From contig VXTU01000044.1 in NCBI GenBank assembly GCA_009837285.1, positions 1 to 41,244 on the forward strand: a DNA stretch of 41,244 nt, in the 5' to 3' direction. Both the position numbers and the translations under genes were made by a program. Numbering within the stretch: the stretch's first letter is position 1; each line of letters starts with the position of its first letter. The notes under the pieces are model-generated. The model searched no databases and had not been told where the DNA came from. It worked only from the letters and a program-made list of their open reading frames with translations. Shown piece after piece: positions 1,246 through 41,119 of the stretch. The stretch comes from Chloroflexota bacterium (GTDB lineage: Bacteria; Chloroflexota; Dehalococcoidia; UBA2979).

Positions 1246-1310
1246 CCGGGGGCGCACGGAGGGCCACGCTGAGGGGACGCTCCGGCGAAGGTAACTTTCG
1301 TCCGCGGCGG

Positions 1311-1329
1311 TCGTTTCGATGCGAAACGA
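1311..1329. promoter_or_regulatory. Perfect 8-bp inverted repeat between divergent genes
   Basis: The arms TCGTTTCG (1311-1318) and CGAAACGA (1322-1329) are exact reverse complements separated by ATG. They lie in the 200-nt divergent region between the surface-protein gene (start 1245) and the sensor-regulator gene (start 1446). Position and symmetry suit a dimeric regulator operator, possibly for the neighbouring winged-helix protein. That assignment is inference. The flanking stretch 1330-1410 is noticeably more A/T-rich than the genes and may hold the promoters. Confidence 0.45.
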
Positions 1330-1445
1330 TAGCCGACCACACACGTAGAGATGTGAGAGAGATATGAAATAGCGCGCCAGATACGTGAGATATCTGTTAG
1401 TGTTTTGTGACGGCGCTCACCAACGGCCGATCGTCAGGGGTAGTC

Positions 1446-7669: not shown

Positions 7670-7675
7670 ACCCGG

Positions 7676-8878: not shown

Positions 8879-8910
8879 CACCAGCGGGCTCCCATCGATG
8901 CCTCGCTGCG

Positions 8911-9981: not shown

Positions 9982-10001
9982 TCTCAAGACACCCCTTGCC
10001 G

Positions 10002-12041: not shown

Positions 12042-12635
12042 TCAGAACTCGATCCCGGGTTGTGCGCGGATACCCTGTTCCCGGAAGGGGTGCTTGACCA
12101 GCGACATCTCGGTCACAAGGTCGGCGTACTCGACCAGCTGCGCGGGCGCGTAGCGCCCGGTGATGACGAGGTGCATCAGCTCCGGCTTGTGCTCCCGCAG
12201 CCATGCGACCGCCTCGTCCACGTCGAGCCAGCCGTAGTGCAGCGGGTACGTGAACTCGTCGAGCACCAGCAGGTCGAAGCGGTGCGCCTCGATGTACTCC
12301 CGGGCCCGCTCCCAGCCCGCCACGGCGAGCGCCGCGGACTCATCGAGGTCCTTGCTCTTCCATGTCCATCCGTCGCCGGATCCCTCCACGTGGATGCCGG
12401 CGTCGCGCGCGGCGCGGATCTCACCGAAGTTGGCGGTGTCGGGCTTGATGAACTGCAGCACACCCACCCGCATCTTGCGGCCGCGCGCCCGGAACGCCAT
12501 CCCGAACGCGGCGGTCGTCTTGCCCTTGCCTTCGCCCGTGTTGACGATCACGAGCCCCTTGCGCCGCTTCGCCTTCCGTACGTCGCGCCGGTAGGCCTCG
12601 GCCTCGCTGACCCCGCCCTCGTCCGTGGGTGTCAT
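12042..12635 (-). CDS. cobO: Corrinoid adenosyltransferase (CobO/BtuR/CobA family)
   Basis: 197 residues. Transfers the adenosyl group of ATP to cob(I)yrinate diamide or cobinamide. The P-loop GEGKGKTT (34-41) follows KGLVIVNT; other family marks are VGVLQFIKPD, LLVLDEFTYPLHYGWLD and VITGRYAPAQLVEYADLVTE, with the usual C-terminal PFREQGIRAQPGIEF. The ATG shares four bases with the cobN stop (ATGA), so translation is coupled to the chelatase. Longer in-frame readings upstream lie inside cobN and are rejected. Confidence 0.95.
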   Translation of the reverse strand: MTPTDEGGVSEAEAYRRDVRKAKRRKGLVIVNTGEGKGKTTAAFGMAFRARGRKMRVGVLQFIKPDTANFGEIRAARDAGIHVEGSGDGWTWKSKDLDESAALAVAGWERAREYIEAHRFDLLVLDEFTYPLHYGWLDVDEAVAWLREHKPELMHLVITGRYAPAQLVEYADLVTEMSLVKHPFREQGIRAQPGIEF

Positions 12636-15600
12636 CCCGAGACCCGCCCCATCTCCGCGGGGCGCTCGCCCAGGCCCTCGATGTCGCCCTCGGCCGCCAG
12701 CAAGGCGGACTCGATGGCGGCGCGCGTCTCCGCTTCGGGGGAGGCCCACAGGCCGCGCTGGATCGCCTCCAGCAGACGCTCGGCGATGTCGCGCCGGGCC
12801 CACGGGTTGCTCGCCGCGAAGAACTCGGCCATCGATTCGTCCAGAAGGTACTGCTGCGTGACCTGCTCGTACTGCCAGTCGTGCACCACCTGCGCGGTCG
12901 CGTCGTAGCCGAACAGGTAGTCGACCGTGGCCGCCACCTCGAGGGCGCCTTTGTAGCCGTGGCGCTTCATCGCCTCGATCCACTTGGGATTGACGACGCG
13001 CGACCGAAACACGCGGTTCGCCTCCTCCTGGAGCGAGCGCACGCGCGGCTGGTCCGGATCCTGGGTGTCGCCGAAGTAGCGCTGCGGATTGCGCCCCGTC
13101 AGGGCACGGATCGTGGCGATCATCCCGCCGTGGAACTGCATGTAGTCGTCGGAGTCGAAGATGTCGTGTTCGCGGTTGTCCTGGTTCTTGACCGCGATCG
13201 CGACCGTCGAGAGTGCGTCGCGGAACGCCGTCCGCGCGTCCGCGCCGAACTCGGCTCGGGTGTAGGCGTATCCGCCCCAGTTCACATACGTCTCGGCCAG
13301 GTCGGCGTCGTCGCGCCAGTTGCGCTCGTCGATGAGCTGCAGGATGCCGGCCCCGTAGGTGCCGGGTGGGCTGCCGAAGATGCGGTACCCGGCGTCACGC
13401 CATGCCTCCGCTTCGGTCGCCCCTTGCAGGCGCAGCCGTTCCGCGTGGGCCAGCCGGTTCGCCCGCACGAAGTTGTCGTGCGGCGATTCGTCCAGGCTGG
13501 AGACACGCTCGACCGCGTCGTCGATCAGCGCGATGGCATGCGGGAACGCGTCGCGGAAGAACCCCGAAATGCGGCACACCACGTCGATGCGCGGCCGGCC
13601 GAGTTCGGCGAGCGGGATCACCTCGACGCCCGTAACGCGGCGGCTCTCGGGCTGCCAGACGGGACGTACGCCGAGCAACGCGAGCACCTGCGCGATGTCG
13701 TCGCCCGAGGTGCGCATCGCTGATGTACCCCAGATCGAGATGCCCACGGAGCGTGGCGGCTGTCCCTGTTCGCGGACATAGCGCTCGACCACCCCCTGCG
13801 CCAGGTCCTGCCCCACCTGCCAGGCCGTTGAGCTCGGGATCGAGCGCGGGTCGACGGCGTAGAAGTTGCGCCCGGTGGGCAGCACGTGCGCCATCCCACG
13901 GGTAGGCGCGCCGCTCGGCCCGGACGGGACGTAGCGCCCCTCGAGCGCGGAGAGGATGTGCAGCATCTCCTCGTCGGTCCGGCGCAGCGCGGGGACCAGC
14001 CGCTCACAGACGAACGCCAGCGTCTCGCGGACACTCGCCTGGCCGTCGGTGTCCGTCGCACCCGCCAGCAGCCCGGCGACGGTGCGTTCGGCATGCGCCG
14101 CGTCGAAGCTGACGCGGTCGAGTTCGCGCAGCACCCTCCTCGTGAGTTCCTGCACGGCGTCCAGAGCGGACGCGTTCGACTCGATGGGGATGCCGGAAGC
14201 CGCGGCGAGCGCGTCGAGCGGGACGCCGGGACGTTGCCCGGGCGCACGCAGCGCCTCCGGTACATCGAGGCCGTATGCGGCCCCGATGCCCGTGCGCAGG
14301 CTCGGGACGGTGCCGTTCGCCAGGCGCACCAGCATGAGGAGCGTATCTATCAGGCGCTCGCCGTCCGGGGGCCGGCCCAGCACGTGCAGACCGTCGCGGA
14401 TCGGCGCGGTCCCCAGCTCGTGCAGGTAGGCATGGATCGCCTCCACGAGGTGTGCGAACTGGTTACCCGACAGGTCCGAGATCGAGTACGGCACGCCGTC
14501 CTCGTGCGTCGTCGGATCCCACTCGTGGGTGTGGTCCTCGGCGTTGTCGGCATTCAGCAGCGTGCCGAGGTCCTTGTCGAGGTCAGCTTCGCGGAGCAGC
14601 GCCCAGATCTGCTGCTGCAGCAACGGCAGCTTGTCCGGGTCGGTGCGCTCCAGGAGGTAGTACTCGTCGACCAGCCGCCCGAGCTGGTCCAGCTCGCCGT
14701 ATGTATCGGCGGTGGTCATGGGCGGCGGCAGGTGGTCCACGATGGTGGCGTGGGCCCGCCGCTTCGCAGCGGCGCCCTCGCCAGGATCGTCGACGATGAA
14801 CGGGTAGATCAGCGGCAGGTCGCCGAGGAACAGGTCCGGGTAGCACTCCTCGGACAGTCCGACGCCCTTGCCGGGTAGCCACTCCAGCGAGCCGTGCTTG
14901 CCCATGTGGACGATCGCGTCGGCGCCGAATCCTCCGGCGGACTCGGGCTCGGCCAGCCAGCGGTACATCGCGTGGTACGGGTACGGCGGTGCGAGGTCCG
15001 GCTTGTGCATGATCGCCGTCTTGTCCATGCCGTACCCGCGCGGTGGCTGGACCGCGACGAAGACGTTGCCGAATCGCAGCCCGGCGAGCGCCACCGTTCC
15101 GGAGTCATCGATGTAGTGGCCACCCGGAGGCGCGCCCCACTGGTCCTGCATCTCCGAGGCGCGCCGGGCAGGGAGCTCGTCGAACCACGCGGCGTGGCGG
15201 TCCGGCGGCACACGGGCCAAGGCAGAACGCAGCTGCTCCTCCGTCAACAGGTCACGGTCGTAATGCCCGCGTTCCACGAGCAGCGCCATCATCGCGTCGG
15301 AGTCGGGCGGCAACTCCCCAACCGTGTAGCCGGAGTCACGCAGCCGCCCCAGCAGCTCGAGCAGCGACGCGGGCGAGTCGAGGCCGACCGCATTCGCGAT
15401 CCGGGCAGCCTTGGCGTTGTGGTTCGTCAGGACCACCACGACCCGCTTCTCGGAGGGGGGGATGTGGCGCAGCGATGCAAGCCGCGAGGCCATACCCATC
15501 ACCCGGTCCGCCCGGTCGGCGACGGCGCCGCGGCGCGTGACGCTCTCCCCGTGCGGCCCGGTGGTCTCCTCCTTGAACGCGACGGGAACGCCGATGATGC

Positions 15601-17047
15601 GGCCGTCGAGTTCCGGGATCGCGACATTCATCGCCACGTCCAGCGGGGGAAGGCCGTTCTCGGATTCTTGCCATCGCTCGGCGGTGATGCCGGCGTTGAT
15701 GGCCTGTAGCTGCGGCACGTCCATACGCCGCAGGACCTCGGTGGCCCACTCATCCTCGGCTCGGTCTTCCGGCGACGAGGCGCCCATCGCGAACGACATC
15801 GTGTGGACCACCGCATCCACGAGGGGCCGCCCCGTGCTGTCGAGGAAGTACGAGCAGGCGGCGGGTATGCCGCCGTCGCCGGTCTCCGCTGCGTCGTCCT
15901 TCAGGGAGTAGGCATAGACCGGCAGCACGTTGAGGCCCGCCGCCTCGCCCGCCTCGACGAGCACGTCGACGAAGTCGGTGTCGCCCGCGAGCCAGTACGA
16001 GCGGTAGAAGGTGAGACCCACCGTGGGCCTCGACGGGTCAGCGATGGCCAACCAGTCGTCGAGGTCGCCACTCGACACGCGCGGATGGTAGACGCCGGTG
16101 CGCGGCTGTTCCGCCGGCGGGTCGTAGCCGATCCCGGTAGCGAGCAGGTGGTCGCTCAGGAAGTAGAGGCACTGGCGGAAGTTCTCGACCCCGCCGAGCT
16201 GGAGGTACGCCTTCGCCTCGTGCGCGATCGCCACGCCGGTGTTCGAGTAGGCGGTCAGCTCCGGGTCGAGATCGTCGGTGGCAGGCATCGCGACGAACCA
16301 CTGCGTGTTGCGGTCGATCATTGCGGCCAGGCGCTGGAATCCGGGTAGGCCCGCGGCGCCACCGTAGACCTTCACCAGCACGATCTCCGCGGAGGGCACC
16401 ACGGACTCGAAGAACGCGACCGCCTCCGCCTCGTCCTGCAGGTGCGCGACGTTGACCACCTGTAGCGGCGGGAGCTGCTCGTCGAGGTCCCCGGAGACAG
16501 CGGACGCCATGACCACGTCGGTATCGGCGTGTGTCAGCACCAGGATGCCCTCGCGACGTGTCACGGCCTCGTCATGCTCTTCCGGAGGCGAGGTCGGGTC
16601 GGCCGACTTGCCGTCCGTGCGGACGGCCGAGAAGGCGAGGTCGCGCAGCGCGGCGGGAGGCGGGAGCCAGCGCTCCTCCGCGACCAGCGTTTCGATGTAG
16701 TCGTAGAGCTCGACGATCCGCTGCTCCGTATTCATCGAGTGGAAGAACGTCGTCGTTCCCTCGAACAGCAGCATGCAGACGTTCGCGAGCGGGCAGGGCC
16801 CGAGGCACCCCGCCATGTTGAGGTGCACCTGGTTGCGGATGCGGCGGCGTTCCCACTCCTCGTGATAGAGGTCGAAGTGCCCCTCGGGCTTGCCGTCCTC
16901 CTCACGTCCGCAGCAGCAGCCGAACCGGCAGACGAAGAGCTGCCCCATCTGCCGGTTGACGTTGACCATCTTGCCGTCGGCGCGCGTGACGATGTTGCGC
17001 GCCCTGCGCGCGGGTCTCGGCCCTCCGACCCACTCGAGGTTAGTCAC
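12632..17047 (-). CDS. cobN: Cobaltochelatase CobN with N-terminal ferredoxin-like domain
   Basis: 1471 residues, about 200 longer than an ordinary CobN. Residues about 30-140 form a Cys-rich module (Cys40, 44, 45, 46, 81, 85, 91; MAGCLGPCPLANVC) typical of thioredoxin-like [2Fe-2S] ferredoxins. The remainder is a full CobN/ChlH-type large subunit (for example PTVGLTFYRSYWLAGDTDFV, HMGKHGSLEWLPGKGVGLSE, WGTSAMRTSGDDIAQVLALL) that binds hydrogenobyrinate diamide and cobalt. GTG at 17047 is the chosen start, with GGAG about 10 nt upstream; Met27 would still keep the Cys module. It heads the riboswitch-led operon and overlaps cobO by four bases. The purpose of the Fe-S-like module is not evident: redox sensing, cobalt delivery or electron transfer are all possible. 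Confidence 0.94.
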   Translation of the reverse strand: MTNLEWVGGPRPARRARNIVTRADGKMVNVNRQMGQLFVCRFGCCCGREEDGKPEGHFDLYHEEWERRRIRNQVHLNMAGCLGPCPLANVCMLLFEGTTTFFHSMNTEQRIVELYDYIETLVAEERWLPPPAALRDLAFSAVRTDGKSADPTSPPEEHDEAVTRREGILVLTHADTDVVMASAVSGDLDEQLPPLQVVNVAHLQDEAEAVAFFESVVPSAEIVLVKVYGGAAGLPGFQRLAAMIDRNTQWFVAMPATDDLDPELTAYSNTGVAIAHEAKAYLQLGGVENFRQCLYFLSDHLLATGIGYDPPAEQPRTGVYHPRVSSGDLDDWLAIADPSRPTVGLTFYRSYWLAGDTDFVDVLVEAGEAAGLNVLPVYAYSLKDDAAETGDGGIPAACSYFLDSTGRPLVDAVVHTMSFAMGASSPEDRAEDEWATEVLRRMDVPQLQAINAGITAERWQESENGLPPLDVAMNVAIPELDGRIIGVPVAFKEETTGPHGESVTRRGAVADRADRVMGMASRLASLRHIPPSEKRVVVVLTNHNAKAARIANAVGLDSPASLLELLGRLRDSGYTVGELPPDSDAMMALLVERGHYDRDLLTEEQLRSALARVPPDRHAAWFDELPARRASEMQDQWGAPPGGHYIDDSGTVALAGLRFGNVFVAVQPPRGYGMDKTAIMHKPDLAPPYPYHAMYRWLAEPESAGGFGADAIVHMGKHGSLEWLPGKGVGLSEECYPDLFLGDLPLIYPFIVDDPGEGAAAKRRAHATIVDHLPPPMTTADTYGELDQLGRLVDEYYLLERTDPDKLPLLQQQIWALLREADLDKDLGTLLNADNAEDHTHEWDPTTHEDGVPYSISDLSGNQFAHLVEAIHAYLHELGTAPIRDGLHVLGRPPDGERLIDTLLMLVRLANGTVPSLRTGIGAAYGLDVPEALRAPGQRPGVPLDALAAASGIPIESNASALDAVQELTRRVLRELDRVSFDAAHAERTVAGLLAGATDTDGQASVRETLAFVCERLVPALRRTDEEMLHILSALEGRYVPSGPSGAPTRGMAHVLPTGRNFYAVDPRSIPSSTAWQVGQDLAQGVVERYVREQGQPPRSVGISIWGTSAMRTSGDDIAQVLALLGVRPVWQPESRRVTGVEVIPLAELGRPRIDVVCRISGFFRDAFPHAIALIDDAVERVSSLDESPHDNFVRANRLAHAERLRLQGATEAEAWRDAGYRIFGSPPGTYGAGILQLIDERNWRDDADLAETYVNWGGYAYTRAEFGADARTAFRDALSTVAIAVKNQDNREHDIFDSDDYMQFHGGMIATIRALTGRNPQRYFGDTQDPDQPRVRSLQEEANRVFRSRVVNPKWIEAMKRHGYKGALEVAATVDYLFGYDATAQVVHDWQYEQVTQQYLLDESMAEFFAASNPWARRDIAERLLEAIQRGLWASPEAETRAAIESALLAAEGDIEGLGERPAEMGRVSG

Positions 17048-19703: not shown

Positions 19704-22082
19704 GTGCTCGCTCTTGCTCACGACGCATGGACATTGGCGCTACATCGCAGCCGTTGGGGGGCGGTGACGCGGGCGGCGCTGCTCGTTGTGGCAGGCGCGG
19801 CAGGCGTCACCGCAGCACTGCTGGTATACGCTCATCTGGCGCCGCTCACGCCGCTCGACGAGCAGGCGCCGCCCGCGGGCACCCTCATCCTCGACCGGCA
19901 CGGGACGCCGCTGCTTCGTGACGCGTCCGCGGGGACGCGCATCCTCGTCGCGCTCGACGACATCGCACCGATCGCCCTGGCGGCCACCGTCGCCGCCGAG
20001 GACCGGCGGTTCTGGCGTCACCCGGGAGTGGACCCGCTCGCGGTCGCGCGAGCGCTCGGCGAAGCCGCGACGGCGGGGGCACAGCCGCGTGGAGCCTCGA
20101 CGCTCACGCAGCAGCTCGCGCGCCGGCTGTACCTGGCCGACGAAGACGCGCCCGCGCTGCTGCGCAAGGCGCGCGAGGCGCTCATCTCGCTACAGCTCGA
20201 GGCGCGCCACTCGAAGCGGGAGCTGCTGGAGGCGTACCTCAACCACGTCTACTACGGTCGAGGCGCATACGGTATCGAGGCGGCTTCGCGGCGCTACTTC
20301 GGGGTGAGCGCGCAACACCTCGGCGTTGCGCAGGCCAGCTACCTTGCCGGCCTGCCGCAGCTGCCGGCCGTATACGGCGACGAGGACGCGCCCGCGGGCG
20401 CGCTTGCGCGACAACGCTACGTGCTGGATCGCCTCGTCACGACTGGCGCGATCAGCGAGGAGCGAGCAGCTGACGCGCTCGCCACGCCTCTCGTCTTCGC
20501 CGGCGAGGGTGACGAGCCCCTCGCGCCGCACTTCACGGCGATGGTCCTGGACGAGCTGGCATCGGTGCGCCCGGACCTCGCGGTGCAGGAAGGCCTCATC
20601 GTCGAAACGACGCTCGACGCGACTCTCCAGCACGCGGCTACGCGATCGCTGCGAGTGCGACTCGAACGCATCGCCGCATGGGGAGCGGGCAACGGGGCGG
20701 TAGTCGTGATCGAGCCGGCGACCGGAGCGCTGCTTGTGCTCGTCGGCAGCGTGGACTTCGAGGAGACGGAGACCGGGCAGGTCAATATGGCGCTCGCGCC
20801 CCGGCAGACCGGCTCGGCGCTGAAGCCGCTCCTGTACGCCGCCGCCTTCGAGCACGGCTACACGGCGGGGTCGATGCTCCTGGATGTGCGCTCGAGCTTC
20901 CCCACACCGATCGGCGTCTACACGCCGGTGAACGCCGACCATCGCTACCGGGGCCCGGTGGCGCTGCGCACTGCCCTCGCCTCGTCGCTGAATGTGCCCG
21001 CGGTGCGCACCCTGGAACACATCGGCGCGGGAGCGCTGGTCCGCATGGCGAACCGCGCTGGGCTCAGCGAGATCGCCGCGCCCGAGCCGTACGGGCTCTC
21101 GCTCGCCCTGGGATCGGCCGAGGTACCGTTGCTCCGGCTGGCAACCGCGTTCGGCGCGATCGCGAACGGCGGCGAGCTGGCCGAGTCCTACACGATCGAG
21201 CGCGTGCGTGACGCCAGGACCGACGACGTTCTGTACGAGCGTGCACAGCCTCCACCGCGCCCGGTGATGTCGCCGGGGCACGCGTTCCTCCTTGCTGACA
21301 TCCTGAGCGACCCGATTGCTCGCGAGCCGGGATTCGGGGCGGGCTCGGTGCTCGAAACGCCGTTCCCGGCCGCGGTGAAGACCGGCACCACGTTCGAGTT
21401 CCGGGACAACTGGACGGTCGGTTTCACCCCCGATCGCGTCGTGGGTGTGTGGGTCGGGAACACCGAGGGGGGCCCGATGTTGGGGCTCTCCGGCGTCGAC
21501 GGCGCAGGCCCGGTATGGCGCGACGTGATCGAGGCGGCAACGGCCGGCCGCCCGCTGCGCGCCTTCGAGCCGCCGCCTTCGGTCGTGGCCGGCATCATCT
21601 GCGCGCCAACCGGCCTGCGCCCGGGTCCGCACTGCCCCTCACCAGTGACCGAGTGGTTCGTGGACGGCACGGAGCCCGAGGAGATCGAGGCGTACTACGT
21701 CCTCGACGCCGATGGCGCGCTCGCGATCGACCCGCCGCTGGAGGCCCGGACGTGGGCGGAGCGGACTGGCATTAGACTGGCCGACACTTACGATCAGGAA
21801 TCCGTTGTGGGTGTGGCGATCGTACAACCGGTGGAAGGGGCTGTGCTCTATTTTGCACCGGAGCTGCAACGCCAGGAGACTGTGCTGCGCGCCACCGTGC
21901 CCGCGGGCGTCCAACACGTCGAGTTTCGAGTGGACGGCGCCACCGTCGGACGGGCGACGGGGCCCGATGCGTTCGTGGTGTGGCCGATGACCCGCGGCGA
22001 GCACACGCTTGAGGTGATCGCGACGTTCGCCGACGGCGCCACTGCTGCCACTTCCTCGCATTACGAGGTGCGCGACCCGTGA
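19704..22082 (+). CDS. pbpC: Bifunctional penicillin-binding protein 1C (PbpC)
   Basis: 792 residues, membrane-anchored by a segment at about 22-42 (AALLVVAGAAGVTAALLVYA). The glycosyltransferase domain carries catalytic Glu99 (AAEDRRFWRHPGVDPLAVAR) and GASTLTQQLARRLYL. The transpeptidase domain carries Ser371 in SALK, SLN (428-430) and KTGT (from Lys559). A C-terminal BiPBP_C-like beta domain (about 695-790) marks it as the 1C class. It polymerises and cross-links peptidoglycan outside the membrane. GTG 19704 is the first possible start because a stop codon directly precedes it; no clear ribosome site is present. An orphan GGAGGTGA lies at 19646-19653, too far upstream to serve it. It overlaps the next gene by four bases. 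Confidence 0.93.
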   Translation: MLALAHDAWTLALHRSRWGAVTRAALLVVAGAAGVTAALLVYAHLAPLTPLDEQAPPAGTLILDRHGTPLLRDASAGTRILVALDDIAPIALAATVAAEDRRFWRHPGVDPLAVARALGEAATAGAQPRGASTLTQQLARRLYLADEDAPALLRKAREALISLQLEARHSKRELLEAYLNHVYYGRGAYGIEAASRRYFGVSAQHLGVAQASYLAGLPQLPAVYGDEDAPAGALARQRYVLDRLVTTGAISEERAADALATPLVFAGEGDEPLAPHFTAMVLDELASVRPDLAVQEGLIVETTLDATLQHAATRSLRVRLERIAAWGAGNGAVVVIEPATGALLVLVGSVDFEETETGQVNMALAPRQTGSALKPLLYAAAFEHGYTAGSMLLDVRSSFPTPIGVYTPVNADHRYRGPVALRTALASSLNVPAVRTLEHIGAGALVRMANRAGLSEIAAPEPYGLSLALGSAEVPLLRLATAFGAIANGGELAESYTIERVRDARTDDVLYERAQPPPRPVMSPGHAFLLADILSDPIAREPGFGAGSVLETPFPAAVKTGTTFEFRDNWTVGFTPDRVVGVWVGNTEGGPMLGLSGVDGAGPVWRDVIEAATAGRPLRAFEPPPSVVAGIICAPTGLRPGPHCPSPVTEWFVDGTEPEEIEAYYVLDADGALAIDPPLEARTWAERTGIRLADTYDQESVVGVAIVQPVEGAVLYFAPELQRQETVLRATVPAGVQHVEFRVDGATVGRATGPDAFVVWPMTRGEHTLEVIATFADGATAATSSHYEVRDP

Positions 22083-25000
22083 CGCGCGCTGTCCTGCGGT
22101 GGCTGGCCCGGCGGTGGTGGCCGCTGGACATCGCGGGCCTGGCCAGCCTGGCTGCGCTCGCAATCGTGCTCAGCGATGTGCCCGAACGCGACGAGCAGCC
22201 ACCAACGGTCATCGCAACGCCGGTTGCCGACGCTACACCGGTGGCCACCGTGGTGGCGTCGCCGACGGCGACTCCCGTAGCCGCCAGGCCGACACCCACC
22301 ACACCCACGCCGGTCCCCACGCCGCCTCCGCCCCCGCCGCCGGTCGTGGTGACGCCGGACAGCGAGGAGGCGCCCCGGCTCTCGTTCATGCGCATCGCCT
22401 TCCTCGATCCTCCTCCCGAGAGTGAGCCCGCCCAACTCGTCTCCATCGAGCCGGCCGTCGAGGGCTCGTTCGTGTGGGTGGACGACCGGACGCTGCTGTT
22501 CCAGCCGGTCTTCCCCGGCTGGGCACGAGGCGAGCGCTACCAGGTGCGCGTCGATGGCGCTGCCTCGGGGCTCGACGAGGACCACGAGCATGCCTTCACC
22601 GTCGAGGGCGCGCTCGAAGTCGTGTACGTCATCCCCGGCGACGGAGACCGCGAGGTGCCGTCGAACGCGCAGATCCTGGTGCAGTTCAACCGCGGGGTGG
22701 CGGCGCTGACGGTGCTGCAAGAGGGTCCGGGCCCGCCCGTGCTGGAGTTCGACCCGCCGCTCGACGGACACGGCGAGTGGCTGAACACCTCGCTCTATCG
22801 ATTCATCCCCGGCGACCTGCGGCCGTCCACGGAGTACCGGGTGCGCATCGCGGCCGGCCTCACCTCCGCCGTCGACGGGGTGCTCGAGGAGGACGTCGAG
22901 TGGAGCTTCACGAGCATCCTGCCGCGCGTGAGCAGGATCACGCCGCATGACAACTCGAACTTCGTCGAGCCTGACCGCAAGGTCGTCATCCAATTCAACC
23001 AGCCGATGGACCATGCCTCCGTCGAAGAGCGCATTGACTTCCGCGTGGACGGTGAGAATCTGAACGTGCCGGTCTCGTTCGCATGGAGCGAGGACAGCGC
23101 CTCCGTCACACTCGAGCCGTTGCGGCCACTCCGGCGGGGCTCGTCGTTCAGCGTGATCGCGCGAGCGGGCATGCTCGGCGCGGGCGGCGGCGCCATGGCG
23201 AACGAGCGCGCCACTACGTTCAGCACGCTTCCCTGGCCGCGGCTGCTCAGCACCGATCCGCGTGACGGAGCCCGTCACGCGCGCCCGTGGGGGATCCGGC
23301 TCAACTACAACAACCCGATGGCCGAGGAATCGTTCGACGACCGCATCTCGATCAGCGGCATCGCAGCCGAGGATATCGATGTCTGGGCGTACTACGACCG
23401 GGCGACTATCAACGCGCCCATCGCGTACTCCAGCGAGTACACGGTGACGATCGCCGAGGGCGTCCGCGACCGCGGTGGGGCCGAGCTACCGGCATACGAG
23501 TTCTCATTCGCGACGCGTGACCCGGACCCCCCGCCTCGCCCCTCGCGCTCGATGCGCCTGTCTCTCCCGAGCTGGTTCGCGACGTACTCGGCGAGCACGG
23601 AACAGGAGCTGTTCTTCGAAGCCATCGTCGCCCCGACAGTCCAGTTCACGCTGCACCCCATCACTGACTACGAAGCCCTCACGTTGCTGCGGCGCGGCTA
23701 CATAGACAGATGGGTGTGGGTGGATGACAAGCGAGTCTGGCGGCCGTTCCGGCCCTCGCTCTCGCACCTGCGCGAGTGGACAGCCGAGACGAGCGAGGAG
23801 GACCGCACCGCATGGAGACGCTACTCGACGACGCTCGGCGGCGGCACGCCGCTGCCGACGGGCGACTACGTGCTCTTCGCGGACTCCGACCGCGGCTCAG
23901 GTCGCCAGGCGCTCATGTTCAGTGTCGTGGACACGGCGATCATCACGAAGCAGTCGCACAACCACCTCACCGCCTGGGTCATCGACTACGCCACGGGCGA
24001 GCCGCTCGATGGCGCACTGCTCACCTACAACTCCGGGAGCGAGACGACGGATGCCGACGGGCTTGCCGATGTCTCATCCCCGAACGCGCGCTGGGGCAGC
24101 TACATCCTGCGGCTGAACGACCAGGGGCGCTTCGGGGTCTCCTTGACGGGGTGGCAGCAGGGCACGGCGCCCTGGCAGCTCAGCGTGCCCTTCACGAACT
24201 CCACGTTCGACCTGCTGGCCCACATCTACACCGAGCGGCCCATCTACCGCACCGGCGAGACGGTCTCCTACAAGGCCGTGGTGCGCCGCGACGACGACGC
24301 AACGTACGCGCTCCCCCGCCCCGACGAGACGGTCACCGTCGTGGTCACGGACTCGAAGTACAAGGAGCTGTCGCGCACAGAGGTGAAACTCAACGATTTC
24401 GGCGCTCTCGAGGGTGAGTTCGAAATCCCCGACGGCGGAGCCACCGGCACGTACCACATCTCGCTGTCCGGCAGCGAGGGGAGGCAATTCCTGGGCCCAG
24501 CTGCGGGCCACATAACGGCTACCACCTTCCTTGTCGAGGAGTTCCGCGTCCCCGAGTTCCGCGTCGTCGTCGAGACGCCCGGGGAGCACTACGTTGCCGG
24601 GGAGCAGATTCCGGTCGAGACCACGGCCGAGTTCTACTTCGGCGGGCCCGTGGAGGGCGCGACCGTCAACTGGGCTGTGCTGTCCCATCCCACCTCGATC
24701 CGCGTTGAGGGGTACGAGCAGTACACCTTCTCCGACTCGCCGTGGCACTGGTACTACTGGGCGCCGCCGGCTCAGCCGCTGCGCGCGCAAGGCCAGGCCG
24801 AGGCCGGCGCCGCCGGCATGGCGCCGTTCGAGGTTCCCGCCGCGCTTCAGTCCGGCGAGGGCACCCATGTCTTCACGATCAGCGCCACGGTCCAGGATGA
24901 CAGCGGGCAGGCGGTGGCCAGCAGCACGAACGTCACCGTACACCCGGCCGCGTGGTACGCGGGGATCGACACCGACTCCTACATCGCCACGGCCGGGGAG

Positions 25001-28000
25001 CCTGAGACGGTGCGTCTCGTCACGGTCGACATCGAGAGCGAGATCGCACCGTGGCGGCCCGTCACCGTCCGCGTGTACGAGCGCGAGTGGGTGACGACGA
25101 AGGTTCGCGCCGCCGGTGGCGGGCGCTACTACACGAGCGAGCTGGTCGAGACCGAGATCGAGGTGCGGGACGTAACGACGGGCGCCGACGGTGAGGCGTC
25201 GATCCGGTTCACCCCGCCGGCATCCGGCTCGTATCGCCTGGTCGCCGAGTCCGTCGACCGCGAGGGGCGTGTTGCGCTCTCGTCCATCTATCTCTGGGTT
25301 AGTGGCCACCGCTACGCACCCTGGCGCATCGGCAACGACGACCTCATCGACCTCATCCCCGACCGCGATGGATACGAGGTGGGCGACGTCGCCGAGGTGC
25401 TGGTGCCCGCGCCCTTCGCGGGCGCGGTCGGCCTCGTCACCATCGAACGCGGCGGCGTCCTCAGCAGGGAGGTCCGCAACTTCGATACCAACAGTGAGGT
25501 GCTGCGGATCCCGATCGAGGATCGACACCTGCCGAACATTTACGTGAGCGTCGTGCTCTACCGCGCCCCGACGGACGACGACCCGGTGCCGCGCTACCAC
25601 GTTGGTTACGTGGAGCTGCCGGTCTCAACAGCGCCTCGGCGCCTCGACGTGACCATCGAGCCCGACCGCGAACGCGCGGCGCCCGGCGAGACGGTGCGAT
25701 ACGAGGTCACAGTCAAGGACTGGCGGGGCCGCGGGGTGGCTAGCGAGGTGTCGGTCGCGATCGCCGACCAGGCGGTGCTGTCGCTGGCCGACGAGGTGGG
25801 ACCGGACGGGATGCGCGCCTTCTGGTTCCAGCGCGCGCTCAGCGTTGCGACTGCCTCGTCGCTCGCTACCTCGATAGACCGCTACAACGACCTCATCGCT
25901 GTCCCGGAGAACGCGAGTGGGAAGGGAGGCGGCGGCGACACCTCGCGCCTGCGCTCGGACTTCCGCAACACCGCGCTGTGGATCGGCCAACTCAAGACCG
26001 ACGAGGACGGCAAGGCGAGCTTCGAGCTCAAGCTGCCCGACAACGCGACGACGTGGCGCGCCCAGGCGCGAGCCGTCAGCGGCACGACGCAGGTGGGCGA
26101 GGCGACGAGCGAGCTGCTGGTCACTCAGCCGCTACTCGTGCGGCCCGCGCTACCTCGCTTCCTCCGCGTCGGTGACGAGGTGACGCTGCGGACGCTGGTG
26201 CGCAACGGCACTACCACCGCGCGCAACGTGACCGTCACCGTCGAGACCGAGGGGGTGGTGTTGAAAGGCTCAGGAGCGCAGACGGTGTGGATCCGCCCCG
26301 ATCAGTCGGAGGTCTTCGAATGGCCGGCCCGGGTGGTCAAGCACGGAACTGCGATCGTGCGCTTCCGCGCCGGTGACGGCGCCGGCCTGAGCGACGGCGT
26401 GGAGCTCAAGCTACCGGTCCACCTCAACGCCACCGCTGAGACGACCGCCACTGGCGGCGCCATCGACGGCGCACTGGCCGTCGAGGCAGTGTACGTGCCG
26501 GACTACGCGATCACGGAGCTCGGCGAGCTCCAGATCTCCGTGCAGGGAGCGCTCGTGGGCGCGCTAGAGGACGAGCTGCGTCACTTCGCGCCGAAGCGCC
26601 GCGAGTGGACCGTGCGCGTTGCGAGCCGGGTGGTCGCGACCGCCGCCGTCTATCGCGCAGACCCCGATGCCCGGCCGGGCTTGCGGAGCCAGCTGCAGGC
26701 CGACGTCACGAAGCTCATCAGCATGCAGAGGTTCGACGGCGGATGGGCGTGGTGCGAGCACAACTGCGGCACCAACCTCTGGATCACAGCCAAGGCGCTC
26801 ATCGCGCTCACCGAGGCGCGAGCGGCCGGCATCCACGTCCCGCCGGGCGTGGCGAGGGACGCCTCGGGTCTCATCTCGGATCGCATCCACCGCCGCACCG
26901 ATGTGATCAGTCCACCCAGCGCCAGCGAGAGCGCGTACCTGCTGTACGCGCTGACGGGCGCAGCGGGCCCCGGCACATCCGTGGCGCGGCAGCACGCGAC
27001 GACCATGGGAGCGATCCTCGACCAACATCGCACGGAGCTCACGAACTGGGGCCGCGCCTATCTGCTGCTCGGTCTGCTCTCGGCCGGGTATACCCCCCAG
27101 CGCGAGTCCGTGCGGATTCTCCTCAACGACCTCACCGCCAACATCATCGCCAGCGCGAACGGTAACCACTGGGAGGACGAGCGGCGCCCTGGCTCCATGC
27201 ACAACGGCAGCGTCGGCACCACCGCGCTGGTGCTGCGCGCCCTCGCCGAGGTGGACCCGGGGCATCCGCTGATCGAGGAGACCGTGCGCTGGCTGGTGCT
27301 CGCGCGCTCGCTCGGCTGGTGGAGCACGACCGTGGACCAGGCGCAGGCGATGGCGTCGCTCGGCGCCTACGCGGAACTGACCCAGGAGCGCCTGGGCGAC
27401 TACGACTACGCGGTCTGGCTCAACACGACCGAGGTGCTGGACGGCCACTTCACCGTGCGCGACGGAGACTACTTCGACGCGACCGAGATCCCGCTCACCG
27501 ACCTCCCGCTGGGCGAGGTCAGCCGTGTCAGCTTCGAGCGCGACGACAGCGGCCCTGGCCGCATGTACTACGGCCTCAACCTCCGCTACGTGACCCCCGC
27601 GCTGGGCATCGAGGCACTCAACCGCGGCTTCGCCGTCTCGCACCGCTACACGCTGCTGGACGATCCGGACACGGTCGTCACCAGCGCCAAACTCGGCGAC
27701 GTGGTGCGGGTGGAAGTCACCGTGGTGGCGCCACACGCCCGCCTCTTCGTGCTGGTCGAGGACTTCCTGCCCGCAGGTCTCGAACCGATCAACCCGCGGC
27801 TGCGGGGCATCGCACCCGAACTCGTCCAGCAGCTCGAGGAAGACCGCGTAGCGGCGACCTTCGGATCCGCTTCCGGGCACTACGCCCCTTGGTACCGCTG
27901 GTACTACAGCCCGTGGCAGCACGTCGACATCCGCGACGACCGCCTGACGCTCGAGGCGAGCCGGTTGCCGCGAGGCGTCCACGAGTACGTCTACTACGCT

Positions 28001-28114
28001 CGCGCGACGACGCCCGGAACGTTCATCGTCCCGCCTGCGCGGGCCGAAGAGACATACTTCCCCGAGGTCTTCGGCCGCAGCGACAGCGGACACTTCACGG
28101 TCGTGGGTGAGTAG
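22079..28114 (+). CDS. Bacterial alpha-2-macroglobulin lacking the thioester motif
   Basis: 2011 residues, starting at a GTG within a four-base overlap with pbpC. The N-terminus is a signal anchor (about 14-33, no lipobox) followed by a Thr/Pro/Val-rich linker with a run of prolines (about 40-95). Then come Ig-like and MG domains, a macroglobulin core (for example IYTERPIYRTGETVSYKAVV), the A2M domain (NTALWIGQLKTDEDGKASFE) near 1300, and an alpha/alpha-toroid complement-like domain near 1555 (GGWAWCEHNCGTNLWITAKA). The CxEQ thioester expected near 1490-1510 is absent; the region reads LRHFAPKRREWTVRVASR. It may trap proteases non-covalently or have a structural role. Pairing with PBP1C is the classic arrangement and suggests protection during wall repair. 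Confidence 0.92.
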   Translation: MTRAVLRWLARRWWPLDIAGLASLAALAIVLSDVPERDEQPPTVIATPVADATPVATVVASPTATPVAARPTPTTPTPVPTPPPPPPPVVVTPDSEEAPRLSFMRIAFLDPPPESEPAQLVSIEPAVEGSFVWVDDRTLLFQPVFPGWARGERYQVRVDGAASGLDEDHEHAFTVEGALEVVYVIPGDGDREVPSNAQILVQFNRGVAALTVLQEGPGPPVLEFDPPLDGHGEWLNTSLYRFIPGDLRPSTEYRVRIAAGLTSAVDGVLEEDVEWSFTSILPRVSRITPHDNSNFVEPDRKVVIQFNQPMDHASVEERIDFRVDGENLNVPVSFAWSEDSASVTLEPLRPLRRGSSFSVIARAGMLGAGGGAMANERATTFSTLPWPRLLSTDPRDGARHARPWGIRLNYNNPMAEESFDDRISISGIAAEDIDVWAYYDRATINAPIAYSSEYTVTIAEGVRDRGGAELPAYEFSFATRDPDPPPRPSRSMRLSLPSWFATYSASTEQELFFEAIVAPTVQFTLHPITDYEALTLLRRGYIDRWVWVDDKRVWRPFRPSLSHLREWTAETSEEDRTAWRRYSTTLGGGTPLPTGDYVLFADSDRGSGRQALMFSVVDTAIITKQSHNHLTAWVIDYATGEPLDGALLTYNSGSETTDADGLADVSSPNARWGSYILRLNDQGRFGVSLTGWQQGTAPWQLSVPFTNSTFDLLAHIYTERPIYRTGETVSYKAVVRRDDDATYALPRPDETVTVVVTDSKYKELSRTEVKLNDFGALEGEFEIPDGGATGTYHISLSGSEGRQFLGPAAGHITATTFLVEEFRVPEFRVVVETPGEHYVAGEQIPVETTAEFYFGGPVEGATVNWAVLSHPTSIRVEGYEQYTFSDSPWHWYYWAPPAQPLRAQGQAEAGAAGMAPFEVPAALQSGEGTHVFTISATVQDDSGQAVASSTNVTVHPAAWYAGIDTDSYIATAGEPETVRLVTVDIESEIAPWRPVTVRVYEREWVTTKVRAAGGGRYYTSELVETEIEVRDVTTGADGEASIRFTPPASGSYRLVAESVDREGRVALSSIYLWVSGHRYAPWRIGNDDLIDLIPDRDGYEVGDVAEVLVPAPFAGAVGLVTIERGGVLSREVRNFDTNSEVLRIPIEDRHLPNIYVSVVLYRAPTDDDPVPRYHVGYVELPVSTAPRRLDVTIEPDRERAAPGETVRYEVTVKDWRGRGVASEVSVAIADQAVLSLADEVGPDGMRAFWFQRALSVATASSLATSIDRYNDLIAVPENASGKGGGGDTSRLRSDFRNTALWIGQLKTDEDGKASFELKLPDNATTWRAQARAVSGTTQVGEATSELLVTQPLLVRPALPRFLRVGDEVTLRTLVRNGTTTARNVTVTVETEGVVLKGSGAQTVWIRPDQSEVFEWPARVVKHGTAIVRFRAGDGAGLSDGVELKLPVHLNATAETTATGGAIDGALAVEAVYVPDYAITELGELQISVQGALVGALEDELRHFAPKRREWTVRVASRVVATAAVYRADPDARPGLRSQLQADVTKLISMQRFDGGWAWCEHNCGTNLWITAKALIALTEARAAGIHVPPGVARDASGLISDRIHRRTDVISPPSASESAYLLYALTGAAGPGTSVARQHATTMGAILDQHRTELTNWGRAYLLLGLLSAGYTPQRESVRILLNDLTANIIASANGNHWEDERRPGSMHNGSVGTTALVLRALAEVDPGHPLIEETVRWLVLARSLGWWSTTVDQAQAMASLGAYAELTQERLGDYDYAVWLNTTEVLDGHFTVRDGDYFDATEIPLTDLPLGEVSRVSFERDDSGPGRMYYGLNLRYVTPALGIEALNRGFAVSHRYTLLDDPDTVVTSAKLGDVVRVEVTVVAPHARLFVLVEDFLPAGLEPINPRLRGIAPELVQQLEEDRVAATFGSASGHYAPWYRWYYSPWQHVDIRDDRLTLEASRLPRGVHEYVYYARATTPGTFIVPPARAEETYFPEVFGRSDSGHFTVVGE

Positions 28115-37731: not shown

Positions 37732-39456
37732 CTACGACGATCCCTCGACGAGTACTGTAACGATATCGATTCCGTAGTACTGCTGGTGACGGACCGAGGA
37801 TGCACGGGACCGGAGCAATCGCAGCGACATCTCGTCGATATCCGGCAGCTCGGCATCTTCACTGAGGTACGCCAGTTGATCCTCCAGGTTCTCTTGCTCC
37901 GAGGAAGCAACGAACTCCAACTCCACCATTCCGACCTGGGGGCGCGCGATGATGGTCAGCCTTCCGGCGCCGTCCGCGCTGTCGTCATTCCAGCCCGCGA
38001 GGCTGGACACGGTCTCCTCGCCGACTGAGCGCAGGCGCTCAGTCGATGGTTCGTTCCACCCGAGACCGGACGCGAGATCACGCATGAATTCGTCGATGGC
38101 CGCAAGAGCCGCCACATCCATCGTGGCGTCCAGGCGTCGGGGGCGGCCCCCGGTGTACTCGAGGATAAGGCTCAGCAAAATGGCGGAGAGCGCGCCATAC
38201 AGCACGCCGCTACCGAAGACTGCCCCCAGCTCGTCCCCGAGCACATGCGGGATGACGTCGTGATTGTCGAGTCCAAGGCCGAGCGCGAGCGAGAGTCCGA
38301 TAGTCAGCGTCTTTTGCTGGTCGAGCCCGCCCTGGAAGGCGGTCTGAGCGCCGCCCACGAAGATGATGCCGAGCGCTAGGATCAGGTAAGCGCCCATGAC
38401 GGGACTGGGGATCGTGAGCAGGAGAGCGCCCACCTTCGGAAAGATGGCCGCGACTATGAATATCAGGGCGATGGCGTAGCCGACGCGTCGGGAAGCGACT
38501 CCCGTGAAGCTGATGAGCGAGGTGCTGAACGAGGCGTACGGCTGCACCGGCGGCGTCCCGGTGACCCCCGCGAGGAGCATCCCCAACCCGTTGGTGCTCA
38601 CGGTGCCCTGTACATACCGGAAGTCGACCGCCCGAGGCTCGCGTTGGGACGCTCGCTGAATGATCATGCTGTCGCTGATGGCCTTCGTGCAGAGGACCAG
38701 TGTCAGCACGACGAAGGTTGGAAGCAGTGCCCAGAACTCGGGCCCCGGGGTGAGATCGAGACCCGGGAACTGCGCTTCCGGAAAGCCGAGCCAGGGGGCG
38801 TCGAGCACGCGCTGGATCTCGTACTGACCGAGCGCCGCCGTCAGGGCGCACCCGGCGGCGATGCTGATCATCGTGGACCACTGGCGCCACGGGCCCGAGC
38901 CTCGAAGCACGAACGCCACCGCGACCACGAGGGTGAGGGCGCCTACGGCCGGACCGGCGACGGCGGGGGCGCCGTCGGGCAGCTCCGTGAGGCGATCGGT
39001 TCCAAATCGCACGAGTGTCACGGCGACGAGCATCAGGACGGTGCCTGACACTACCGGCGTGATGATGCGACGCAGCACGGGGAGCCACTGCGCGACGGCG
39101 AACTGCACGAAGGCACAGACCACCAGGAGGCTCGCCAGCGTGGCGGGACCTCCCTCGGAGAGGGCCACGATCGTGATCGCGACGAACTGGACGGTGGGAC
39201 CGGTGATCACGATATGCCCGGACCCGAGCCGCGGCGCACGGGTGGCGTGCAGCGCCGTGATCACGGCGTTGATGAGCAGTGCACAGAGGACAGCCCAATT
39301 CAGGTATTCGTCACCCTGATCCGCCGCCCGCACGGAGATGGCCACAATCAAAATGGTCGGCGCCAGGACGAGCGCGACGCCCTGGAGCCCCACTGCAGCC
39401 GCGAGGAGAGGCGAACAGGCCTCATCTGGTGTGTAGCGCACGGCCTGAGCTGTCAT
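37732..39456 (-). CDS. NCS2-like permease with C-terminal GHKL/RsbW-like extension
   Basis: 574 residues. Residues about 15-435 have 12-14 hydrophobic segments and match the nucleobase/ascorbate (UraA/XanP) transporter family, for example GSGHIVITGPTVQFVAI, STNGLGMLLAGVTGTPPVQP, TGVASRRVGYA and IPSPVMGAYLILALGIIFVG. The usual Asn of the NVG-like motif is replaced (FSTSLISFTG), so the substrate may not be a nucleobase. Residues about 440-574 are soluble and resemble an anti-sigma-factor (RsbW-type) GHKL fold: RLRSVGEETVSSL as N-box, and DEMSLRLLRSRASSV followed by YYGIDIVTVLVEG at the end; the canonical glycine boxes are not clear. ATG 39456 has AAGG 9 nt upstream. It lies between hydrolase and PKS in one run, so export or import of a PKS-linked compound is possible. 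Confidence 0.78.
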   Translation of the reverse strand: MTAQAVRYTPDEACSPLLAAAVGLQGVALVLAPTILIVAISVRAADQGDEYLNWAVLCALLINAVITALHATRAPRLGSGHIVITGPTVQFVAITIVALSEGGPATLASLLVVCAFVQFAVAQWLPVLRRIITPVVSGTVLMLVAVTLVRFGTDRLTELPDGAPAVAGPAVGALTLVVAVAFVLRGSGPWRQWSTMISIAAGCALTAALGQYEIQRVLDAPWLGFPEAQFPGLDLTPGPEFWALLPTFVVLTLVLCTKAISDSMIIQRASQREPRAVDFRYVQGTVSTNGLGMLLAGVTGTPPVQPYASFSTSLISFTGVASRRVGYAIALIFIVAAIFPKVGALLLTIPSPVMGAYLILALGIIFVGGAQTAFQGGLDQQKTLTIGLSLALGLGLDNHDVIPHVLGDELGAVFGSGVLYGALSAILLSLILEYTGGRPRRLDATMDVAALAAIDEFMRDLASGLGWNEPSTERLRSVGEETVSSLAGWNDDSADGAGRLTIIARPQVGMVELEFVASSEQENLEDQLAYLSEDAELPDIDEMSLRLLRSRASSVRHQQYYGIDIVTVLVEGSS

Positions 39457-39472: not shown

Positions 39473-40387
39473 TCAGCTCCGGAGCAACGCCAGCGAGTCC
39501 AGGAAGTCGCGCATGACGTTCGCGCACTCCGAGGGCTGCTGCAATTGGAGCATATGAGTGGCGTCGGGGAGGAAGTCATAGTCGACGCCGACCATGTCGC
39601 CGAGATCGAAGGTCGGCAGGTACGAGTATGGGAGCGTCGGGTCGGCACCGATGACCTTGACCGGGCATTGGACGGACGGCAGGTCTACCAGGACGGCGAA
39701 CATCCGCGCGTACTCGATGATCTGGCCTTCGTACTCGGGCGGACATCTGAGTTCGTACCCCCGACCGTCTGGAGCGTCGCGGAGCGTTGTCTCCGCAGCG
39801 AGGTGGGCCACGCCGTCCACTACGTCATGAAAGGTCGGCGAAAAGCCCATCAGGTCGGCGAAGTTCTCCTTGCTCCGGAAGCGGTTTGACCGGCCCCGCG
39901 CCCGTCGCGCCTGATCGATGGCCGCGTCGTCGAACTCCTCGTGCAGCACGCCGGGTCTGCGCAAGGGGGGATCGAAGAGCACGAGCGCATCGAGATTGCT
40001 CCCGCTGCTCGGCGCCAGCAATGCGGCCAGTGATGAGACGGAGTGATAGACACCGACTGTTGGTTTCGGGCCCCATTCAGCCCCGATCGCTTCGATCACG
40101 AGATCGTGATCGGCTGCGAGGGTGGGGAGGGTGTGGTTCACCAGCGGCCCGAGGGCGTTCTGCCCGTGATTTCGCAGGTCATGGACGACGACGTCGAACT
40201 CATCCGTCAGCAGCGACCAGAACGGGTAGTAGAGGTCAATCGCCAGGCCGTTGCCGTGGCACAGCACCAGCCGCGGGCCGTTCGGATTGCCGTGTCGCCG
40301 TACCCGGATGTCAGTTTCCTCGTCAACCCGGAGGTCGAATGAGGAGCCGGGCTCTGGCACCCGCCACACAGTCTCAGCGGGGTCCAT
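39473..40387 (-). CDS. Alpha/beta hydrolase
   Basis: 304 residues from ATG 40387, favoured because GGAG lies 7 nt upstream; GTG 40411, abutting the transferase stop, is the alternative. The fold is clear: RLVLCHGNGLAIDLYYPFW (oxyanion loop), FDVVVHDLRNHGQN, and the acid and His near the C-terminus (KVIGADPT, LPDATHMLQLQQP). The nucleophile elbow is unusual: GVYHSVSSLAAL, with Ser flanked by His-Ser-Val-Ser where Gly-x-Ser-x-Gly is normal. Encoded between a phosphopantetheinyl transferase and a PKS that lacks a thioesterase, it could release or proofread the polyketide chain. Esterase or dehalogenase-like activity cannot be excluded. Confidence 0.82.
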   Translation of the reverse strand: MDPAETVWRVPEPGSSFDLRVDEETDIRVRRHGNPNGPRLVLCHGNGLAIDLYYPFWSLLTDEFDVVVHDLRNHGQNALGPLVNHTLPTLAADHDLVIEAIGAEWGPKPTVGVYHSVSSLAALLAPSSGSNLDALVLFDPPLRRPGVLHEEFDDAAIDQARRARGRSNRFRSKENFADLMGFSPTFHDVVDGVAHLAAETTLRDAPDGRGYELRCPPEYEGQIIEYARMFAVLVDLPSVQCPVKVIGADPTLPYSYLPTFDLGDMVGVDYDFLPDATHMLQLQQPSECANVMRDFLDSLALLRS

Positions 40388-40411
40388 CAAGCAGCTCCGC
40401 GCCGCCGTCAC

Positions 40412-41119
40412 CTACGGGCTCAATTCGTAGGCGACCGCCGCGGCGTACTTGTCATTGCCGAGATCTTCCACCCGCCAGGTCACCCCTGGCAACTCGGGCA
40501 ATTCAACGGCGCCGCCGGCGCGCCCCTTGCGCAGCGCCGGCGGGATCTCGAAGGCCGTCGGATCGAGGATCAGGCCGGCGCCGTGCGCCTTGAGCAGCGC
40601 CTCCTTCATGGTCCAGAGCCTGAAGAACAGGTGGAGTTGTTGCGAACCCTCGCGCGCCGCGAGTTCCGCGCGCTCCTCCGCTCCGAATGTGGCGTCGACA
40701 AGCAGGTCGAAGCTGCGGTGCTCGGTGCGCTCCTCGACGTCCACGCCCACGCGGCCGCGCGCCGCAAGCGCGATCAGGCCATGCCGGCCGCCGTGGCTGA
40801 CGTTGAAGCTGACCGGCGCAGGCTCGTCCTCCACCCGGGCGAACGGCTTGCCGTGTGTCGTGGTTCCGAACGATAGCTGGTCGTTGCAGCAGCCGAGGTG
40901 GCTGGTGAGCAGGGTGCGCAGTGCTGCGCGGCACAGCGTGAACTGCCGGCGCGGGCCCGCGAAGGCAAACCCGCGCCGGCGGCGATGCTCGGTCTCGTCC
41001 AGCAACGCAAGCGCGGCCGACTCACGCGTCGAATCCTCGGCGAGGTCGACGTGGAATACGGTGACGCTACCCGATGTCTTCAGCGTCTCCCACCACGGGG
41101 CGGGGACACCGGGCGACAC
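40412..41119 (-). CDS. Sfp-type 4'-phosphopantetheinyl transferase
   Basis: 235 residues. Attaches the phosphopantetheine arm of CoA to carrier-protein serines, so it should activate the PKS ACP (Ser1984). Family motifs: GKPFA then VSFNVSHGGRHGLIALA, Mg-binding GVDVEERTEHRSFD, and RLWTMKEALLKAHGAGL. The length is normal for the Sfp group. The GTG at 41119 is the likely start, though its ribosome site is weak. It ends directly before the hydrolase and follows a carrier-protein-like gene by 48 nt, all on the same strand. Confidence 0.92.
   Translation of the reverse strand: MSPGVPAPWWETLKTSGSVTVFHVDLAEDSTRESAALALLDETEHRRRRGFAFAGPRRQFTLCRAALRTLLTSHLGCCNDQLSFGTTTHGKPFARVEDEPAPVSFNVSHGGRHGLIALAARGRVGVDVEERTEHRSFDLLVDATFGAEERAELAAREGSQQLHLFFRLWTMKEALLKAHGAGLILDPTAFEIPPALRKGRAGGAVELPELPGVTWRVEDLGNDKYAAAVAYELSP

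Follow-up and report, generated by a model that had tools for sequence, protein, structure and literature searches.

Gene content of the window

The stretch of DNA analysed here (the window) is 41,244 nucleotides of a Chloroflexota contig. Towards its end, genes for a PPTase, an alpha/beta hydrolase, a permease and a type I PKS form a tight operon on the minus strand, and the permease starts 16 bp past the hydrolase stop (Table 1). The permease has an NCS2-like core and a soluble C-terminal tail (about residues 434–574), as a preliminary description of the locus had proposed. The PKS protein ends just past its second KS-AT pair; no ACP or thioesterase comes after it, and no adjoining PKS continuation is found in the window.

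The rest of the window holds genes of other kinds. A cadherin and SWM-repeat protein is encoded at 1–1344 (minus strand), and another cadherin-repeat protein is found near the same PKS cluster in a related region (L007:2-5752). An 815-residue hybrid sensor with GAF, PAS, HisKA, HATPase, receiver and Trans_reg_C DNA-binding domains follows at 1407–3854 (plus strand). At 6773–17047 (minus strand) a CobN-type chelatase, a ChlI/VWA protein, a FecCD permease, a periplasmic binding protein and an ABC ATPase stand in a row, a set that probably serves cobalt or cobalamin uptake. At 19704–28114 (plus strand) a PBP1C-type penicillin-binding protein is directly followed by a bacterial alpha-2-macroglobulin of 2011 residues.

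Table 1. Features of the permease gene and its PKS cluster, with positions in the window
Feature	Position	Strand	Basis or remark
Sfp-type 4'-phosphopantetheinyl transferase (PPTase)	40412..41119	-	Pfam ACPS, AASDHPPT_N
Alpha/beta hydrolase of the conserved PKS cluster	39473..40411	-	Pfam Abhydrolase_6; distribution and adjacency
Permease-tail fusion gene	37732-39456	-	Encodes 574 aa
NCS2-type membrane core, residues 1-433	38158..39456	-	Pfam PF00860; profile match to UapA, UraA and SLC23A1 structures
Lys258, at the conserved TM8 Glu position of NCS2 transporters	38683..38685	-	Profile alignment to UapA ACECIGD
Altered TM10 signature YASFSTSLISFT, residues 307-318, one extra residue	38503..38538	-	Alignment
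Degenerate RsbW/HATPase_c_2-like C-terminal domain, residues 434-574 (141 residues)	37735..38157	-	hhalign/HMM tests with controls; bridging relatives; purifying selection
E480-E481, invariant N-box glutamates of the tail	38014..38019	-	Tail alignment; Asn position is Ser485
Region in place of G1 box and ATP lid, residues 519-541	37834..37902	-	Family consensus EENLEDRLAYL
Type I PKS, KS-AT-DH-KR-ACP-KS-AT	29052..about 37706	-	Pfam; start inferred, 25 bp past permease stop

The membrane core departs from nucleobase transporters

Residues 22–397 of the permease match the Xan_ur_permease family (PF00860) with an E-value of 9.9e-39 and 133.6 bits, against a cut-off of 27. The NCBIfam models TIGR03173 and TIGR00801 (pbuX, ncs2) match as well, but under their curated cut-offs. 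In NCS2 proteins, a glutamate in TM8 has a role in nucleobase binding. Lysine occupies this position in the window protein, and likewise in 17/17 PKS-linked members of the family. The QNxGxxxxT-type signature of TM10 is absent from the window protein, which has FSTSLISFT with a one-residue insertion instead. This insertion is common to the PKS-linked members; the subset of paralogs that keep the glutamate does not have it.

Since Lys258 stands in place of the usual substrate-binding glutamate, a nucleobase substrate is unlikely. The preliminary description had named the altered TM10 stretch, YASFSTSLISFTG, which is indeed present, and had taken it as a hint of a non-nucleobase substrate. The hint is supported by the way in which the core departs from the normal nucleobase site, both at Lys258 and at the TM10 insertion. 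Judged by these residues, the window permease is a member of the NCS2 superfamily but is not classed as a nucleobase transporter, and its substrate would be a non-nucleobase compound, perhaps an acidic one.

The tail belongs to the RsbW-type HATPase_c_2 family

In single-sequence searches, the window tail alone had no Pfam, NCBIfam or significant PDB match; its resemblance to anti-sigma-factor kinases, suggested in the preliminary description, is visible at the profile level only. When the Chloroflexota tails were compared by hhalign with 14 stand-alone HATPase_c_2 proteins, with no bridging sequences, the score was 41.7 and the probability 89.6%. Column-shuffled alignments served as the null (150 trials; mean 11.9, sd 2.3, maximum 19.8). 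With bridging sequences the probability was 96.5%. An HMM that contained the bridges recovered 57/57 Chloroflexota tails at E<0.1, of which 42 fell below 1e-3, while the best of 639 controls reached 0.22. One divergent relative (L031, 29% identity) has, at the corresponding position, a Pfam HATPase_c_2 match above the cut-off (E 2.3e-10), and weaker single-sequence matches were obtained for relatives from Azospirillum (0.0014) and Pseudoroseomonas (0.0098). A PDB sequence search with the L031 tail gave a weak match to RsbW (E 0.35). AlphaFold runs on the tail and on the whole protein, each from two sequences only, yielded models of unusably low quality (pLDDT 47 and 33); in the full-length one, the tail elements run in the RsbW-compatible order helix-helix-strand-strand-helix-helix-strand-strand.

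A STAS domain, which the preliminary description had set as a finding that would speak against its reading, is ruled out: the hhalign score of the tails against STAS was 17.6, inside the shuffled range, with a probability of 1.8%. The profile scores and the bridging relatives together thus favour the RsbW/GHKL assignment and exclude STAS, and homology of the tail to the RsbW-type HATPase_c_2 family is well supported. Descent of the tail from the RsbW of the switch operon described below is not supported, since the RsbW subset scored 23.3 in hhalign and the other HATPase_c_2 proteins 31.0.

The tail has lost its ATP-binding motifs and is under purifying selection

The N-box glutamates are invariant among the tails, and the N-box asparagine is kept in only one of 56. 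The G1 motif DxGxF is lost, as is the G2 box GGLG, where an S-[LF]-R-L-L motif is found instead. Because the N-box asparagine, G1 and G2 are all missing, the tail is unlikely to bind ATP and is probably a pseudokinase. It could still be asked whether the tail binds ATP and, as an active serine kinase, informs RsbV of transport activity, which comes near the idea of the preliminary description. The RsbW-type domain and its invariant N-box glutamate speak for such a kinase, but the asparagine is replaced in 55/56 tails and the glycines of both G boxes are gone. An active kinase is therefore not supported, and we consider it very unlikely.

Loss of these motifs is not a sign of decay. The omega values of the tail (0.06–0.23) are comparable to those of the core (0.06–0.32), and mean identity to the window protein amounts to 52% over the tail and 49% over the core; the tail is under purifying selection like that on the core. 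Conservation is high on the side of helix-3 and the lid, and the best conserved parts are helix-3 and the strand region that follows (0.82 and 0.77), a pattern that fits a binding surface.

Distribution of the fusion and its link to the PKS cluster

The window's genome carries five further copies of the fusion, 38–47% identical to the window protein. Relatives were found in 8/60 close genomes, and 29 of the 301 Chloroflexota genomes in a wider sample gave long matches, with up to 7 copies per genome. Tail-permeases occur in patchy Chloroflexota lineages and in a few Proteobacteria; no relatives were found in the viral contigs searched. A single-sequence search of genome contigs returned one near-copy only, and the closest public match (96%) is from the MAG Chloroflexi bacterium SB0661_bin_44. 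The tail is present in nearly all full-length relatives, whatever their neighbours.

The set of PPTase, hydrolase, permease and PKS recurs in five Chloroflexota families (f1, f47, f58, f61 and f96). A close homolog of the hydrolase was found in 26/301 genomes, and all 26 are among the 29 permease genomes. By match coordinates, the best hydrolase lies beside a permease in 23 of the 25 genomes other than the window's own (not in G100; G290 was not counted as adjacent). Gene order and orientation vary: in the window's genus the genes run in one direction, and elsewhere the permease is convergent to the hydrolase. In three regions (L119, L120 and L121, from G141, G267 and G156), a 103-aa and a 134-aa protein adjoin the permease. 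Since a clustered relative is HepT-like, the pair may be an MNT/HepT toxin-antitoxin.

In the family tree, the PKS-linked permeases fall in one region, with some unlinked members nested among them. Other paralogs adjoin unrelated genes; at about a dozen such loci, the neighbours were acyl-CoA, aldolase, Rieske, methyltransferase, regulator and repair genes. From the clustering in one branch and the family-wide presence of the tail it follows that one branch is truly linked to the PKS and that the tail is older and wider than this link. The association with the PKS seen in the preliminary description therefore holds for that branch, in five family-level lineages, but is not a feature of the fusion as such, most paralogs standing beside unrelated genes; a PKS-specific tail is ruled out. 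A mainly purine-gene neighbourhood, which had been named as evidence against that description, was looked for at the surveyed paralog loci. Their neighbours are not purine genes, except in the Azospirillum relative, the only one with guaD/puuD close by.

These results bear on two other explanations of the fusion. In the first, the tail is a docking site for acyl carrier protein, which would put export under the control of carrier load or of the PKS. Binding of this kind is reported for the STAS domain of E. coli YchM/DauA; the operon in the window has both a PPTase and a PKS with an ACP domain, and the PKS linkage is conserved in one branch. Paralogs far from any PKS, however, have an equally conserved tail, so that only the general carrier protein of fatty-acid synthesis could serve as partner, and we regard this explanation as quite unlikely. 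The second takes the protein for an ordinary nucleobase transporter that has a neutral extension at its C-terminus and only happens to lie beside the PKS. It agrees with the NCS2 family match, but the lysine in TM8, the changed TM10 signature and surveyed neighbours other than purine genes argue against such a transporter, purifying selection argues against a neutral extension, and a cluster conserved in five family-level lineages argues against chance. We hold it to be extremely improbable.

The fusion provides a conserved transporter candidate for an uncharacterised Chloroflexota PKS cluster, in a host lineage that is presumably sponge-associated. The cluster is comparable to those of sponge-symbiont Chloroflexi in that type I PKS clusters have been reported in SAR202 and Caldilineae sponge symbionts (PMC6306507). 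The main text of that report does not contain the word permease, and no transporter of the window's kind was found described in it.

Co-occurrence with an RsbV-RsbW switch operon

On another contig of the window's genome (C47), one operon encodes RsbV (STAS), a response regulator with a PP2C phosphatase, an intact RsbW, a periplasmic binding protein and a TorS-like histidine kinase. Its order is kept in 22/23 regions from permease genomes, this one included; one region is cut by a contig end. The operon of G054 is divergent and is without the histidine kinase and the periplasmic binding protein. A SulP transporter with a STAS tail lies directly upstream of the switch operon, in divergent orientation, in two genomes (L159:4545-6284 and L201:4449-6095, from G000 and G003), and was not found beside it in the other regions fetched.

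Stand-alone RsbW and the tail-permease were found in exactly the same 8/60 relatives, which represent 4/41 genera; if genera are independent, the chance of such a match is 1e-5. In the Chloroflexota phylum sample, RsbW was detected below an E-value of 1e-22 in 28/29 permease genomes and in 0/272 others. The E-values lie below 1e-40 in 27 of the 29, at 1e-27 in G100 and at 1.2e-15 in G054, and the best among the other genomes is 6e-21. The control for this co-occurrence was one gene, alpha-2-macroglobulin, and its distribution differs: it was found in 13/60 genomes, 7 of them without the permease. The hydrolase of the PKS cluster, which has no obvious tie to RsbW, is likewise confined to permease genomes (26/29, none outside), and the co-occurrence may partly reflect shared ecology or ancestry.

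No permease gene was seen adjoining the switch operon in Chloroflexota. In the gammaproteobacterium Candidatus Thiodictyon syntrophicum, a gene annotated as "hypothetical protein" proves to be the terminal part of a broken tail-permease, and a STAS gene follows 33 bp downstream in the same direction; two whole tail-permeases are nearby. In this region of plasmid pTs417 (L185:479-7722), with its two divergent and one truncated tail-permeases and the STAS gene, there is also an NHLP-type RiPP precursor with ABC transporters. A survey of sigma factors with region 3 found no SigB/SigF-type factor in the window's own assembly and a single Sigma70_r3 protein; the completeness of this assembly is 90.5%, so that a sigma target may have escaped the survey.

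A tail of structural or self-regulatory role is the other explanation on which this distribution bears. Here the tail would steady the NCS2 dimer or block the inner gate and would sense directly, with no link to the switch operon. RsbW-type domains dimerise, as do NCS2 transporters; the tail is found in nearly all full-length members regardless of neighbours, with its ATP motifs lost; and the STAS domains of SulP/SLC26 transporters are reported to be necessary for stability and function (PMC8256260). This explanation would, however, not account for the matching distribution of RsbW, nor for the tail-permease of Thiodictyon that has a STAS gene next to it. We judge such a role somewhat unlikely.

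A proposed partner switch that acts on transporters

The reading that we favour, at a probability of roughly 45%, is that the window gene encodes an NCS2-fold transporter whose pseudo-RsbW tail is a docking and gating domain under a partner switch driven by a two-component system. In this mechanism, the tail would have lost ATP binding and been kept for docking and gating. An outside signal would pass from the periplasmic binding protein and the TorS-like histidine kinase to the response regulator with its PP2C phosphatase. The phosphatase and the intact RsbW kinase would determine whether RsbV is phosphorylated. Either RsbV in its unphosphorylated form or, as a heterodimer partner, the RsbW kinase would then bind the tails and turn transport on or off. 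A single switch would reach six transporters in the window's genome, and the window transporter, recruited to the PKS operon, probably moves an acidic precursor or product of the PKS.

The preliminary description had the fusion couple flux of a compound to signalling. Coupling of the two is retained in the proposed mechanism, but its direction may be the reverse, as the gene survey favours signalling that controls flux. A tentative extension is that this ligand-sensing partner switch has, in place of a sigma factor, a family of transporters with inactive RsbW domains as its output, so that many permeases would be gated at once, one of them dedicated to the PKS. Since the transporter carries an RsbW-like half and the switch operon is intact, direct action of the switch on transporters can be tested with two or three purified proteins.

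Comparison with known systems

Each part of the fusion is of a known kind, but no description was found of an NCS2 core joined to a pseudo-RsbW tail; in the open-access literature, no paper was found on an NCS2-HATPase fusion or on its coupling to a partner switch. Over residues 22–397, the window protein is like NCS2/NAT transporters (UapA, UraA and XanQ; SLC23) in core fold and sequence. It differs from them in Lys258 for the TM8 glutamate, in a TM10 changed by an extra residue, and in the added C-terminal domain. The tail is colinear with the anti-sigma kinases RsbW and SpoIIAB, with which it shares the N-box helix with its invariant glutamate and the helix-3 and strand region; in contrast to them, it is without the N-box asparagine and the G1 and G2 motifs, and it is fused to a transporter.

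The operon on contig C47 resembles the classical RsbVWU switch, in which RsbV, a PP2C phosphatase and RsbW are encoded in one operon. In the SigF switch of Mycobacterium smegmatis, input comes from the two-component system RsfSR, and RsbW3 acts via a heterodimer with RsbW1 (PMC10950880). Two-component input to a partner switch is thus common to both, and the heterodimer is a precedent for an RsbW homolog acting in this way. The output in M. smegmatis is a sigma factor, whereas here a SigB/SigF-type sigma factor was not found and RsbW-like domains are carried on transporters.

A transporter joined to a GHKL-type module is also known from CbrA, in which an SSS/SLC5 domain is fused to a histidine kinase. 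CbrA is unlike the window fusion in having HisKA and an active HATPase_c, and in its transporter family and direction of signalling. The SulP/SLC26 and NCS2 folds are akin, both with an inverted-repeat 7+7 membrane core. Like the window fusion, SulP/SLC26 transporters combine a membrane core of this related kind with a cytoplasmic domain that is one half of an anti-sigma partner pair. SulP carries the RsbV-like half (STAS) and the window family the RsbW-like half; if the proposed switch is correct, its action on tail-permeases would be a mirror-image counterpart to the STAS domain carried by SulP/SLC26 transporters.
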